Shown: one piece after another, positions 58,201-64,000 of the stretch
How the letters are laid out: each line of letters starts with the position of its first letter
Numbering within the stretch: the stretch's first letter is position 1
DNA from: Rhodospirillaceae bacterium
GTDB taxonomy: Bacteria > Pseudomonadota > Alphaproteobacteria > UBA828
DNA length: 64,000 bases
Assembly: GCA_002728135.1 (NCBI GenBank)
Contig: PBVE01000009.1
Coordinates: 1 to 64,000, forward strand
Direction: 5' to 3'
Translations under genes and position numbers: made by a program
The notes under the pieces: generated by a model
What the model was told of the DNA's origin: nothing
The model's input: only the letters and a program-made list of their open reading frames with translations
The model's database searches: none

Positions 58201-59037
58201 TTATTTCTGTAGAACGTACCTATGTAAGAATCTTTCTAAAGAGATTTTTGGTGTTTTATGATCTAAAGGTGTATGTATCCTCGATAAAGGGGTTTTACTA
58301 TAAACTATAGAGAAACTATCATCATTCTTCATGAATTTTCCACAATCACCTTGTAATGTTGGATGCATGAACCAAGGATCCAGTTTGCCCACAAAACTCA
58401 TTACAGGTTGGTTATTAGGACTGTTTAATCCTGAATATTCTGTCCATCCCGAGTGACAGCCCCAGCCTTCAATTATTCTTGCAAGGACAGGTGTGGAGGT
58501 TGATTCTTTTAAGGTTGCTGTTGTAATCCCGCCTTCACTTAATCCAACTAAAATGACCTTATTGGATTGAATCCAATCTAACTTCATAGAATTTTCAATT
58601 GCGTATGTTGCTTCTTCTTGCCTAAGTGTTAGTGTACCTCGATGCAGTCCTCCTTTAAATTGATAGGGAAGACAACTTAAGGGTTTAATTTTTCTTGCAA
58701 AACTATCTGGTGCAATAACTATAAAACCAAGCTTTGCAAGAAAACTACCCCGACGATCAGATCCTTCCCAGAGGCCAGCACATCCATGTAAGTAAATGGC
58801 TAATGGAAGTGGTTTTGCATGAGAACCTTCCATCAGCTTTGAAAGCTCTGAAATTGATAGTTTCTTTATAGAACCCTTATGTTGAATATATGTTCTAGCT
58901 GATTCCCATGTACGGCTGACTTCAGTGCAATCAATTCTATTGCAGAGCTGGTCTGAATAAACGATTGAGCTTTTGCTAAAAATAGGAAGACCTAAGAGCA
59001 ATATAAAGAAAATAAGAATTCTATATGATTTAAACAA
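58201..59037 (-). CDS. Secreted alpha/beta hydrolase (dienelactone hydrolase-like)
   Basis: A 278-residue exported protein: hydrophobic signal ILIFFILLLGLPIFSKSS, then a hydrolase fold. LAIYLHGCAGLWEG is the oxyanion-side strand motif, GLSEGG the nucleophile elbow with Ser, GKLDPWF the likely acid and IHTPLDH the histidine. Five further cysteines suggest disulphides in the periplasm. Substrate unknown. TTG 59037 is taken as start because AAGGACAG lies just before. It faces away from the Fur-box promoter and may be controlled by it. Confidence 0.72.
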   Translation of the reverse strand: MFKSYRILIFFILLLGLPIFSKSSIVYSDQLCNRIDCTEVSRTWESARTYIQHKGSIKKLSISELSKLMEGSHAKPLPLAIYLHGCAGLWEGSDRRGSFLAKLGFIVIAPDSFARKIKPLSCLPYQFKGGLHRGTLTLRQEEATYAIENSMKLDWIQSNKVILVGLSEGGITTATLKESTSTPVLARIIEGWGCHSGWTEYSGLNSPNNQPVMSFVGKLDPWFMHPTLQGDCGKFMKNDDSFSIVYSKTPLSRIHTPLDHKTPKISLERFLHRYVLQK

Positions 59038-59151: not shown

Positions 59152-59172
59152 TGCGAATGCTTCTCATTTGCA
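59152..59172. promoter_or_regulatory. Fur-type iron box before the DUF4856-fbp operon
   Basis: The core GCGAATGCTTCTCATTTGC is the alphaproteobacterial Fur box form. It lies 90 bases before the DUF4856 start codon and 115 bases from the divergent hydrolase gene. Its presence next to an Fe(III) transporter operon supports iron-responsive control. Confidence 0.72.
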
Positions 59173-59261
59173 TTCTCAATAAAGATGTTATAGATTATAA
59201 ATTGTTTACTAATGTCACACTTTTGATGACGCATAACACAGAATTTTGGGAGATTTGAATA

Positions 59262-60695
59262 ATGAGTCGAATTGTTGGTGTTGGGGCTATAGCTCTAGCT
59301 GGTTCATTAATATCAGGGTCTGCATATTCTGATGGTCATGTATATTCAGGTTTTCCCGTAACCGTTAAAGGATATGAGGGAAGTAAGAATACTTCTGTTT
59401 CTTACACAGGGCAGATTGCAAGGCATGTTCTGCATGACTCTATAAAGGTTCTTGCTAGTCAGGGAACAGAAAATACTAAATCATCAACCGTAATTGAAGA
59501 TAAGATGCTGTCTTACTTTTCAAGCAGTGAAAAAGGACGAGAAATAATTGCACCTAAATCAAAGGGTGTTTTTATTATAAAGCAGGAAAAAGTTGATGAT
59601 ATTTCAGGTGGAAAGAATCTATCTGGAAAAACTTATTCTGGCCAGATTGCAGGTATGCCTGGAAATATGACAGGTGCGGAACTTGTTGAGTTTTGGATAA
59701 ATAAGGCATCACGAGTTAATGGCGGTGTTGATATTCATACAGGATATAATTATCCACAGTTAATTTCGAAGTTTGTAATGGGAGCTGTTTCCTATAACCA
59801 AGCTGTTGATAATTACCTGGATGAGAAGTTGACCGCAGAAAATAAACCAAATGACAAGCCTTATAAAGATGGTGCTGCATACACTGGTAAAGAACATTCA
59901 TGGGATGAGGCATTTGGGTATTTTGGTGCTCCAGCCCATACAATGGCATTGACGGCAAAGCAAGTATATGAGATTGCCAAATTAGGATCAAAATCTAAAG
60001 ATCCTGCTGATGCCCTTAAATACGCAGATCACAACAATGATGGTGTAGTTGATCTAAAGACAGAAATGGTATTTGGGCCCGCTTATTATGCTGCATCCTT
60101 TGATAAGGGTGGTAAAACTAGTTATCTCCACAACATAATGGGAGCATATCTCGACGGTCGTAAGGTCATTATAGCTGCCGACGGAAACAAACTTTCAGAT
60201 GAACAGAGGTCGGAGCTTATTGATTATGCTTCAACTATTTCATCTAATTGGGAGGCTGTTCTTGCTGAAGCTACTTTTAAATATGCTGGTTCAGTCTACA
60301 AAGATATGGCAGCCATCCAGAAGGCTCTAGACACAGGCGAGAGTATATCTAAGATTTCTCTGAACTACTATAAACATTGGGGTGAATTGAAGGGTTTTAG
60401 TCTATCTCTGCAAGTAGGTAAAGATAATCTTGGAGGAATAGCGGCACGTATAAATCGTTTAATCGGCTATGGCCCACTACTACCAAACCTTAGCCAAGTT
60501 GTTGATATCGATAGTAAAGGTGCTTATCAGAAGGATCAGGGTTCATCATGGGGCGAGTATATGCTCCATATGCTTAAATTACAGAAGCTGCTAGCTGCTG
60601 AATTCCCAATTTCAGTACTCAGTAATAATATGATGGAAGATATTTCATCCCTTGCTGGTTCATTGGGTGATGGTGCTAGTGCAGAAAATGATTAG
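59262..60695 (+). CDS. DUF4856 family exported protein (imelysin-like context)
   Basis: A 477-residue secreted protein: signal peptide ending GSAYS near residue 23, then a DUF4856-type region. The family hallmark EHSWDEAFGYFG is at 211-222, with TYSGQIAG, GYNYPQLISKFVMGAV and YYKHWGELKGFSLSLQ also matching. An EF-hand-like loop DHNNDGVVDLKTE (256-268) may bind calcium. DUF4856 proteins are known mainly from Bacteroidetes and have no established role. Being first in a Fur-box operon with an iron importer points to iron or haem handling at the cell surface (inference). Strong hairpins follow it. Confidence 0.8.
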   Translation: MSRIVGVGAIALAGSLISGSAYSDGHVYSGFPVTVKGYEGSKNTSVSYTGQIARHVLHDSIKVLASQGTENTKSSTVIEDKMLSYFSSSEKGREIIAPKSKGVFIIKQEKVDDISGGKNLSGKTYSGQIAGMPGNMTGAELVEFWINKASRVNGGVDIHTGYNYPQLISKFVMGAVSYNQAVDNYLDEKLTAENKPNDKPYKDGAAYTGKEHSWDEAFGYFGAPAHTMALTAKQVYEIAKLGSKSKDPADALKYADHNNDGVVDLKTEMVFGPAYYAASFDKGGKTSYLHNIMGAYLDGRKVIIAADGNKLSDEQRSELIDYASTISSNWEAVLAEATFKYAGSVYKDMAAIQKALDTGESISKISLNYYKHWGELKGFSLSLQVGKDNLGGIAARINRLIGYGPLLPNLSQVVDIDSKGAYQKDQGSSWGEYMLHMLKLQKLLAAEFPISVLSNNMMEDISSLAGSLGDGASAEND

Positions 60696-60711
60696 TTGAA
60701 TTTTCCCCCCT

Positions 60712-60746
60712 CAATGGTCTGGGTTTAACCCCCCCTGGTTCCATTG
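60712..60746 (+). terminator. Nested hairpin after the DUF4856 gene
   Basis: CAATGG (60712-60717) pairs with CCATTG (60741-60746) around an inner GGGTT/AACCC pair. It precedes the stronger hairpin at 60757-60791. Together they form a structured stretch between the first gene and the rest of the operon. Confidence 0.4.
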
Positions 60747-60756
60747 GGACTCCCCT

Positions 60757-60791
60757 CTCAGCAGGTCTGGTTAAATATCAGACCTGCTGAG
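60757..60791 (+). terminator. 13-bp stem-loop, attenuator or mRNA processing/stability site
   Basis: CTCAGCAGGTCTG (60757-60769) and CAGACCTGCTGAG (60779-60791) are a perfect 13-base inverted repeat with a nine-base AT-rich loop. Downstream reads ACTATTTTGG, only a weak T run, so partial read-through is likely. It would let the first gene be expressed more strongly than the three that follow. Confidence 0.6.
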
Positions 60792-60808
60792 ACTATTTTG
60801 GTGTTTAG

Positions 60809-61834
60809 ATGTTTGAGATTATTGATGATTATATAAACCAAATATGGGAACCTTTAATTAATCCCCAAAAACGTATTTTTATTGGTTATTTGGCATCGAG
60901 TTTTTTTCTAGCATTTTTTATCATAATTTTTCAGTTTAGATCTTCAAATAAGACAGTTGATATTCGTAAAATATTGATGATGCTTTTTTCACGACGTATA
61001 TGGCTTAGTACCTCTTCATTTGCTGATTATAAGATTTTGCTAATAAGTAGATTTATTATACTTTCGATAGCCCCTTTCTTGCTATCTACTGTAGCTTTAA
61101 CAACTATAATTTTCGAATGGTTACATATAGTTTTTGACGGAAGAATTTATATAACTGGATCAATTCCAGATTGGGCCGTAGCAGTTGTTTTCTCAGTGTC
61201 CATGTTTCTTGTTGATGACTGGACAAAATATATTATTCATAAAGCTCTTCATAGAGTACCCCTACTTTGGTGTTTTCATAAAGTTCATCATACTGCAGAA
61301 GTCTTAACTCCATTCACTGTCTATAGAACACATCCTGTAGAAGCTATAATTTTTGCAATACGCAGTGTCATAAGTAAAAGTATTGTGTTAGCGATTTTTG
61401 TTTATTTCTTTGGTAGTCAAGTAGAGCTACTTACTGTTGTAAGTGTCAGTATTTTTCTTTTCTTTTTCAATTTATTAGGTTCTAATTTACGTCACTCCCA
61501 TGTATGGCTTTCATACGGGGAGAAATTTGAAAAGTGGTTGATTTCTCCAGCACAACATCAGATACATCATTCTTTACTAATCGAACATCGGGATCAAAAT
61601 TTTGGTGCTGTATTGTCTATATGGGACAGAATAAATGGAAGTTTATATGTAACAACTAGAAGAAAAGAACGGATTATATTTGGCATCTCAGGGACTTCCA
61701 AGAAAGTGCATAAGATTCAGCATATATTTTTGTATCCATTTCTAGAATTCTATCAAATTTTTACTGGTGGTATTAGGCCATCATTTAAAAAAATCATACC
61801 AAAACAAAATACTCAACTATTTAAAGTAAAATGA
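60809..61834 (+). CDS. Membrane fatty-acid-hydroxylase/sterol-desaturase family protein
   Basis: A 341-residue integral membrane protein, with about four helices, of the di-iron fatty acid hydroxylase superfamily. The histidine boxes are HKALH (144-148), HKVHH (157-161) and HQIHH (250-254), plus RHSH near 229 and THP near 174, the expected metal ligands. Such enzymes hydroxylate or desaturate lipids with O2. Here the gene sits 18 bases after a stem-loop and seven bases before the iron-binding protein gene, so it is in an iron-uptake operon; its substrate is unknown. Confidence 0.88.
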   Translation: MFEIIDDYINQIWEPLINPQKRIFIGYLASSFFLAFFIIIFQFRSSNKTVDIRKILMMLFSRRIWLSTSSFADYKILLISRFIILSIAPFLLSTVALTTIIFEWLHIVFDGRIYITGSIPDWAVAVVFSVSMFLVDDWTKYIIHKALHRVPLLWCFHKVHHTAEVLTPFTVYRTHPVEAIIFAIRSVISKSIVLAIFVYFFGSQVELLTVVSVSIFLFFFNLLGSNLRHSHVWLSYGEKFEKWLISPAQHQIHHSLLIEHRDQNFGAVLSIWDRINGSLYVTTRRKERIIFGISGTSKKVHKIQHIFLYPFLEFYQIFTGGIRPSFKKIIPKQNTQLFKVK

Positions 61835-61841
61835 GAGTCCA

Positions 61842-62861
61842 ATGTACAAAATTCCCTTATCGATGTCTTTGTTAGGTCTTTTTTTAGGACTGATTATATT
61901 ACCTACAGTAGGTCTGGCCGATTTAAATATTTACTCACATCGTCAGCCATTTTTAATATCCCCTTTTATAGAGGCTTATGAGAAAGAAAGCGGGACAAAG
62001 GTTAATATTGTTTATGCATCAAAGGGTTTAGCACAACGTTTGCAGGCAGAGGGAGAATTAAGCCCTGCTGATGTAATACTTACAGTTGATATTGCAAGAT
62101 TATCAGTATACGCGGATAAGGATTTACTAGCAGTGGTCCAATCCTCTTTACTAGAAAACTCAATCCCCCCTCATCTAAGAGACAAAGATAATAAGTGGTT
62201 TGCCTTCTCCAAGCGAGCTCGTGTGATCGCTGTTTCAAAGCAATCTAGTGATGTAAACAATATAAAAGATTATGAGGACTTATCCAACAAAGAGTGGGAA
62301 GGGAGAATTTGTTCAAGACCAGGCAGTCACGTATATAATCGTGCCCTATTAGCTTCAATTCTTCATGCACATGGTTACGAGAAAGCAAAGAAATGGGCTA
62401 AAAGTCTGCGAGATAACTTTGCTCGTAGGCCTCAGGGTAATGACCGAGCCCAAGTTAAGGCAATTCAAGAAGGTATTTGTGATATAGCAATTATAAATCA
62501 TTACTATTATGGAAAACTTAAATTTTCTGAGAAAGTTGAGCACCGTAGTTGGGCTGATAATGTTGATATAATTTTTCCAAATCAGGGAAATAGAGGAACT
62601 CATATAAATATCTCAGGTGGCGGAGTCGCAAAGTATTCGAAAAATAAAAAAGAAGCTGTTAAGTTTTTGGAATTTTTAATCTCAGATAAAGCACAAGAAT
62701 TATATGCTTCGATAAATTTCGAATATCCTGTTAGAACAGATGTGCCTTTATCAGAAGAACTTGCCTCTTGGGGAAAATTCAAGGAAGATAAGATGCCAAT
62801 TGGAAAAATAGCAGTTCTTGCACCAGAGGCTCAGAAAATAATTGATGTAATAGGATGGTAG
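61842..62861 (+). CDS. fbpA: Fe(III) ABC transporter substrate-binding protein (FbpA/FutA-like)
   Basis: Periplasmic ferric-binding protein. The 339 residues have a signal peptide ending VGLA (about residue 26), then the mature start DLNIYSHRQ. Iron-binding tyrosines of the class II family lie in AIINHYYYGKL, and GNDRAQVKAIQEG and NISGGGVAKYSKNKKEAVKF are the conserved ligand-lobe and C-terminal motifs. It abuts the permease gene, whose GTG immediately follows the stop codon. The Fur box 2.7 kb upstream fits iron-limited expression. Confidence 0.92.
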   Translation: MYKIPLSMSLLGLFLGLIILPTVGLADLNIYSHRQPFLISPFIEAYEKESGTKVNIVYASKGLAQRLQAEGELSPADVILTVDIARLSVYADKDLLAVVQSSLLENSIPPHLRDKDNKWFAFSKRARVIAVSKQSSDVNNIKDYEDLSNKEWEGRICSRPGSHVYNRALLASILHAHGYEKAKKWAKSLRDNFARRPQGNDRAQVKAIQEGICDIAIINHYYYGKLKFSEKVEHRSWADNVDIIFPNQGNRGTHINISGGGVAKYSKNKKEAVKFLEFLISDKAQELYASINFEYPVRTDVPLSEELASWGKFKEDKMPIGKIAVLAPEAQKIIDVIGW

Positions 62862-64000
62862 GTGTTTTCTCAGGTAATTAAGGATAATTTCCTTGGTCTT
62901 CGATCAAATGGTTGGCAAACCTTAGCGCTACTTTTTACCTTAGTATTGTTAGCACCAATTGTAGCGATCTTTTATGTTGCTTCCGGAAACAGCGAAGGGC
63001 TTTGGGAGCATTTAATAGATAGTGTTATCCCTCGATATGTTCTTAACACATTGGGCTTAATGTTAGGTGTAGCAATTGTATCTCTGATTTTTGGAGTTTC
63101 AACGGCATGGATTGTAGTTAAATATGATTTCAAGTTCCGTAGAGTTTTTGAATGGCTATTATTGTTACCTGCCGCAATTCCTGCCTATTTAATAGCATAC
63201 ACATACGCTGATTTTTTGGAATTTTCTGGCCCAATCCAGACTGGAATAAGGTGGCTTTTTGGTTGGGAAAAAGCTACAGATTACTGGTTTCCTGAAATAC
63301 GTTCTTTGCCGGGTGCCTGTATTTTAATGGGTGCAGTTCTATATCCATATGTTTATGTTATGGCTCGTGTATCATTTTTGCTTATTCCAAGTTCGTTTTT
63401 TGATGTCGGCTTGTTAGCAAATAGAAATATCTTTATCGCTGTAGCCCTCCCAATTGCAAGGCCTGCTATAGCTGCAGGTTTAGCCCTTGTTTTAATGGAG
63501 ACTGTATCAGATTTTGGGGTGGTGGAATATTTTGCAATAGAAACACTTACCCTAGGTATATTCAATGTTTGGCTTGGAATGAATAATATCACAGCAGCTG
63601 CACAAATTGCATGCTTATGCTTTGTTTTTATAATTCTTCTCATAGCGATGGAGGTAATTTCCAGGGCTCGCCAAAAATTTGCCGACACAACTAAAAAATC
63701 TAAATCAATTTCTCCAACAAAACTGAGTGGATTAAAGGTAGCGGGTTGTTGGATCGTCTGTTGTCTACCAATAATAATTGGTTTTTTCTTACCAGTTGGT
63801 GTCTTATTAGGTTTCATAGTAAAGGGATATAGTGTTGACCTCAACGTTGAACTTGGGGCGGCAGCACTAAATAGTTTATTGATTGGTATTTCTGTTGCTT
63901 GTTTAGTTCTTTTTCTATCATCTGTAATGTTATTTACGGCGAATTATAAAGGTGATTTCCTTATGCGGCGTTTGGTGGGACTCGCCTCTATAGGGTATGC
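62862..64000 (+). CDS. fbpB: Fe(III) ABC transporter permease FbpB-like (incomplete at right edge)
   Basis: Membrane channel of the ferric importer. An open frame with GTG start at 62862, directly after the fbpA stop, runs to the window end (about 379 codons). It begins VFSQVIKDNFLGLRSNGW and shows several helices, ALLFTLVLLAPIVAIFYVA being the first, with the family segment YVLNTLGLMLGVAIVS and the EAA-loop region LPIARPAIAAGLALVLMETV, VSDFGVVEYFAI. A long linker follows before the second half begins near residue 285. FbpB proteins are usually two fused permease halves, so about a third is missing. An ATPase gene should follow outside the window. Confidence 0.88.
   Translation, partial: MFSQVIKDNFLGLRSNGWQTLALLFTLVLLAPIVAIFYVASGNSEGLWEHLIDSVIPRYVLNTLGLMLGVAIVSLIFGVSTAWIVVKYDFKFRRVFEWLLLLPAAIPAYLIAYTYADFLEFSGPIQTGIRWLFGWEKATDYWFPEIRSLPGACILMGAVLYPYVYVMARVSFLLIPSSFFDVGLLANRNIFIAVALPIARPAIAAGLALVLMETVSDFGVVEYFAIETLTLGIFNVWLGMNNITAAAQIACLCFVFIILLIAMEVISRARQKFADTTKKSKSISPTKLSGLKVAGCWIVCCLPIIIGFFLPVGVLLGFIVKGYSVDLNVELGAAALNSLLIGISVACLVLFLSSVMLFTANYKGDFLMRRLVGLASIGY

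Follow-up and report, generated by a model that had tools for sequence, protein, structure and literature searches.

Why should a DUF4856 protein and a membrane protein of the FA_hydroxylase superfamily (FAH) be encoded in line with a ferric iron importer? The question is raised by the last 4.9 kb of the window, the whole stretch of 64,000 nucleotides from a marine-type Rhodospirillaceae bacterium that was analysed, where four genes follow one another on one strand in the order DUF4856, FAH, FbpA and FbpB. All read on the plus strand: the DUF4856 gene (59262-60695, 477 aa, matching PF16148), the FAH gene (60809-61834, 341 aa, matching PF04116), the FbpA gene (61842-62861, 339 aa), which encodes an FbpA/FutA-type Fe(III)-binding protein matching 1q35, and the FbpB gene (62862-64000, the window end), which continues on contig C22 to about 64517 and encodes a two-domain permease of 551 aa. 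The next gene on the contig after FbpB, encoding a short-chain dehydrogenase (SDR), is reversed. The original prediction had described a Fur box followed by four same-strand genes of these families, with gaps of no more than 7 bases after the first gene pair, and the ORF calls, profile matches and structure-sequence matches agree with it; the measured gaps are 113, 7 and 0 bases. That DUF4856 and FAH belong to an iron-acquisition module is a conclusion held here with high confidence.

The original prediction had also suggested a wider iron-acquisition system, an idea that a lack of conserved neighbourhood in related genomes would have refuted. Co-occurrence was checked in a scan of one genome per species, which found 416 DUF4856 relatives, of which 80 were kept (loci L003-L082, to which the totals refer because some loci repeat a record, L084 for example being the same as L003). 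Two of the 80 contigs end inside or just after DUF4856, leaving 78 in which the presence of FAH could be tested. FAH accompanies DUF4856 in 74 of these 78 and is nearly always the next gene, so that the neighbourhood is conserved and, with Fur-like boxes recurring upstream, the suggestion is supported. FbpA occurs in 59 of the 80 loci (the other 21 show none, some of them because contigs end) and FbpB in about 50; many loci also have ABC ATPases within them or alongside, the ATPase cluster behind this statement also containing unrelated members. Some maps of GC-rich loci miss genes, the longest antisense ORF having been chosen there, and the counts were not taken from these maps. Carriers of the module include SUP05, SAR116, Rhodospirillales-like and Oceanospirillaceae genomes, with culturable strains such as Nisaea denitrificans DSM 18348, which is of the single-ORF type, and members of Oceanospirillum and Neptunomonas among them, and the FAHs adjoining DUF4856 form one supported group in a quick FAH tree.

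A second, even sample of 398 genomes of the phylum, searched for FAH at an E-value threshold of 1e-20, gave DUF4856 in 10 genomes, the source genome included. In all nine of the other carriers FAH lies on the same strand within about 5 kb, adjacent in four and about 4.5 kb off in five, and FAH occurs in only 36 other genomes of the 398; the hypergeometric probability of this overlap is near 1.5e-10 (calculated by hand, uncorrected for relatedness). The five distant cases have the order DUF4856 lipoprotein, imelysin, TonB-dependent receptor, FAH. Three other relatives of FAH are each the last gene in a run of imelysin, DHOR, imelysin and FAH, followed by a MauG-type peroxidase gene where tested, and one such run has FbpB and FbpC directly upstream. 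More distant FAHs, outside the clade, lie in unrelated neighbourhoods. The presence of FAH in two further iron architectures indicates, as far as gene context can, that it is a recurrent partner in iron acquisition and not an accident of the source genome. An iron island in locus L125 (6269-16998) carries FbpB, FbpC, imelysin, DHOR, imelysin, FAH and a MauG-like ORF, beside which lies an ORF with a REGLEA motif, recognised by eye, which we take to be typical of FTR1/EfeU permeases.

In 25 of the 80 loci one ORF, about 650-690 aa long, encodes both FAH and FbpA. Of 21 linkers checked between the two, 20 contained a signal-peptide-like hydrophobic segment and 19 an AxA-like site, and the segment is usually preceded by a methionine. 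In such a topology the C-terminus of FAH would lie on the inner side of the inner membrane and FbpA on its outer side. On the quick FAH tree the single-ORF state is scattered, with at least four changes on well-supported branches, and even close relatives differ in it: FAH and FbpA are split in the window and fused in the sister genome L003. Cleavage by signal peptidase, or translation from internal starts, may divide the product, and the fusion need not, therefore, mean a lasting physical complex. A merely chance proximity of FAH was rejected on the strength of the conservation together with the single-ORF versions.

The FAH of the window matches PF04116 with an E-value of 1.5e-21 and has the superfamily histidine motifs complete. 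Ten histidines expected at or near the di-iron site (H144, H148, H157, H160, H161, H175, H229, H250, H253 and H254) are invariant or near-invariant, being kept in 80 or 81 of 81 sequences, which makes FAH very likely an active di-iron oxygenase, its catalysis being inferred without enzyme data. An AlphaFold2 model of the protein reached a pLDDT of 89.5, but a PDB fold search with it returned no match, so the family assignment rests on sequence. Lipids are substrates of the FA_hydroxylase superfamily, and a lipid- or ligand-modifying membrane enzyme is a plausible inference, both the substrate and O2-dependent hydroxylation being inferred.

FAH might instead be an independent enzyme of lipid remodelling at low iron, for example a hydroxylase of the ornithine-lipid type, that shares Fur control and handles no iron. 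Lipid activity is established for the superfamily, and FAH weakly matches the OlsE NCBIfam equivalog (42.8 bits, with the cut-off of 475 not met), yet a plain member of the regulon needs neither adjacency nor fusion, whereas FAH is found with iron modules of three kinds and shares an ORF with FbpA in 25 of the loci. An iron-requiring enzyme for lipid upkeep would also be odd during iron shortage, and this explanation is considered unlikely. Less likely still is a non-catalytic FAH, whose histidine cluster would bind or relay iron or which would serve as a membrane scaffold for FbpA; the physical linkage to FbpA in single ORFs and the many invariant histidines would fit such a role, but the full superfamily histidine set has been kept, which suggests selection for catalysis. 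An oxygenase acting within iron uptake remains the preferred reading of FAH.

The DUF4856 protein matches PF16148 at 5.5e-12 (45.8 bits against a gathering cut-off of 22.3), as do all 50 of the aligned homologues. Its motifs are EHxxDExxGYFG, KHWGELKGF and an EF-hand-like DxNxDG loop. Residues invariant down to lipoprotein versions only 24-28% identical include E211, H212, D215, E216 and the GYFG run, together with D256, E268, R300, W330, K371, H372, E375 and K377; by inference from this conservation, they could form a metal site. The AlphaFold2 model, made with 50 homologues, is mostly helical (pLDDT 91), and a PDB fold search with it matched no solved structure. An identity with imelysin was rejected, there being neither a Pfam M75 match nor a PDB fold match; the resemblance is confined to a vague HxxDE/HxxE motif. 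In the clade of the window the protein has an ordinary signal peptide, ending in the window near the AYS/DGH junction, which makes a periplasmic location as likely as a surface one, and in the TonB-receptor architecture it is lipoprotein-like. An iron-capturing surface protein is a plausible inference, without binding data; with no structurally related PDB entry to go by, the ligand can only be guessed. No plasmid carrier of DUF4856 was found in a plasmid search, and no paper on it in a search of the open-access literature.

The Fur-box-like operator, TGCAAATGAGAAGCATTCGCA, lies on the minus strand at 59152-59172, exactly where it had been predicted. It matches the 21-base consensus at 15 of 21 positions, a score that is attained by 7-15% of shuffles of the AT-rich window DNA and is thus unconvincing alone. 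Conservation supports it: the site lies within a longer block that is almost unchanged in the sister genome, in contrast to its poorly conserved surroundings. Across 84 upstream regions (some of them repeats of one record) the best score had a median of 15/21 against 11.9 in shuffles, and 54 of the 84 outscored at least 97.5% of their own shuffles. Fur-family genes are present in the source genome, and Fur and bacterioferritin genes recur beside alphaproteobacterial DUF4856 loci. The site at the promoter can thus be regarded as a putative Fur operator supported by conservation, with no data on Fur binding or iron-dependent transcription. The intergenic region holding it is common to a divergent gene for an esterase-like secreted protein (58201-59037, minus strand), which no locus but that of the sister genome was seen to share. 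In alphaproteobacteria, small proteins without a Pfam match, about 170 aa long, recur in the vicinity of Fur, bacterioferritin and the DUF4856 operon (L024 4311-4817, L018 3243-3752 and similar). Two more Fur-box-like sites, both strong, lie near the other end of the window at 200-281 (TGCAAATGATTATCACTCGCA and TGCAAATGATTATCACTTGCA); they are at least as good as the site at 59152 and lie upstream of a 100-aa exported protein (548-850).

Within the operon, the gap between DUF4856 and FAH contains a perfect stem-loop of 14-16 bp (TCTCAGCAGGTCTG..CAGACCTGCTGAGA, 60756-60792, plus strand) without a clean T-run. A significant perfect hairpin occurs in 20 of 54 homologous gaps, and its recurrence with differing sequences suggests that DUF4856 is made in excess. 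Binding proteins are usually made in excess. The stem-loop is possibly an attenuator, or a 3' stabiliser of the DUF4856 message, and the downstream genes may be expressed below the level of DUF4856.

FbpA has E-values below 1e-80 with both 1q35 and 2pt1 (4.5e-87 with Mannheimia FbpA, 1q35), and has tyrosines at the positions aligned with Y142, Y198 and Y199 of 1q35, presumably the Fe(III) ligands of that protein. FbpB, directly downstream, matches PF00528 at 2.5e-13. No fbpC is present at the locus; the best candidate stands alone on another contig, C17, where its neighbours are scpB-like and tatA-like genes. Although a substrate cannot be fixed from sequence alone and the NCBIfam models nearest to FbpA are phosphonate binders (all far under cut-off), import of another metal or of an organic solute in place of Fe(III) can be set aside with little hesitation, as FbpA comes nearest to Fe(III) binders of known structure and keeps their tyrosines, and Fur boxes and bacterioferritin and Fur neighbours accompany the module.

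The source genome (2.1 Mb, 91% complete) has one FAH and one FbpA, and searches of it detected neither an imelysin nor a PF00593 TonB receptor, although missing contigs could hide a receptor. On these four grounds the DUF4856-FAH-Fbp locus looks like the main Fe(III) importer of this genome. PF00593 receptors were counted in 26 other carriers reached through the loci: 11 have none, eight have one and the others many. Their absence from the 11 carriers and from the source genome indicates that the module can do without TonB receptors, with which it can nevertheless coexist; absences in single genomes may again reflect missing contigs.

These elements can be joined in a model of a Fur-repressed Fe(III) operon in which DUF4856 is the capture protein and FAH an oxygenase at the hand-over to FbpA. 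As a whole the model is considered probable, with appreciable doubt, and data on expression, binding and enzyme activity are lacking. Under iron shortage Fur would leave the operator, and DUF4856 would be exported, probably in excess of the downstream products. Outside the inner membrane it would capture Fe(III) or a ferric complex, in a role resembling that of the imelysins, with which DUF4856 co-occurs elsewhere. FAH, in the inner membrane, would draw on O2 and its di-iron centre for the oxidation of a hydrophobic partner, which could be the iron-holding organic ligand or lipid, or else a lipid on which the capture protein docks. This oxidation would help the iron to pass to FbpA, which is made beside FAH or as one chain with it, and FbpB and FbpC would then import it. 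No TonB-dependent receptor would be needed in genomes like the source genome. Gene order, families, co-occurrence, single-ORF versions, Fur-like boxes and the metal ligands of FAH and FbpA are observations; the specific roles given to DUF4856 and FAH go beyond the evidence. The boldest form, an uptake independent of TonB receptors in which a DUF4856 protein with a new fold captures Fe(III), FAH attacks the organic ligand or lipid bound to it and the iron is released directly to the attached FbpA, is speculative and improbable as it stands.

Growth is iron-limited in much of the ocean. The module is widely distributed, including in genomes without a detectable TonB receptor, where the outer route of iron is an open question, and its recurrent partnership across many unrelated bacteria points to an undescribed way of iron uptake. 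DUF4856 and the whole FA_hydroxylase clade thereby gain a role in iron acquisition that can be put to the test. None of the component families is new; the module, the single-ORF FAH-FbpA form and the link between the FAH clade and imelysins were not found described. That the gene combination was new had been proposed at the outset, and searches confined to the open-access literature returned no description of it and nothing linking FAH to an iron importer.

Among the closest known systems, the ornithine lipid hydroxylase OlsE shares the FA_hydroxylase superfamily with FAH, which scores far under the OlsE family cut-off and whose context is iron and not lipid. The imelysin operons PA4370-4373 and VC1264-1266, LruB and the EfeUOB-type systems (Xu et al., PMC3143127) are similar in consisting of Fur-regulated exported iron-uptake proteins with helper oxidoreductases. 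FAH is itself found in imelysin-DHOR-imelysin operons, whereas the window has neither imelysin nor DHOR; the account of imelysin operons in PMC3143127 makes no mention of a hydroxylase. In Riemerella anatipestifer, the neighbouring genes RAYM_09779-09794, Fur-repressed and controlled by iron, encode a TonB receptor, a membrane enzyme, an imelysin lipoprotein and a hypothetical protein (PMC5609570). This set parallels the architecture of DUF4856, imelysin, TonB receptor and FAH, but the membrane enzyme in the place of FAH is annotated as a vitamin K-dependent gamma-carboxylase (PMC5609570). Another is the FbpABC/FutABC ferric importer, which the window system resembles in an FbpA near 1q35 and 2pt1, a two-domain FbpB and Fur-box-like control, and from which it differs in the detachment of fbpC in the source genome, in its two additional conserved genes and in the frequent union of FAH and FbpA in one ORF. 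It would be an importer of the FbpABC type, with its ATPase encoded elsewhere, extended by two conserved accessory parts.
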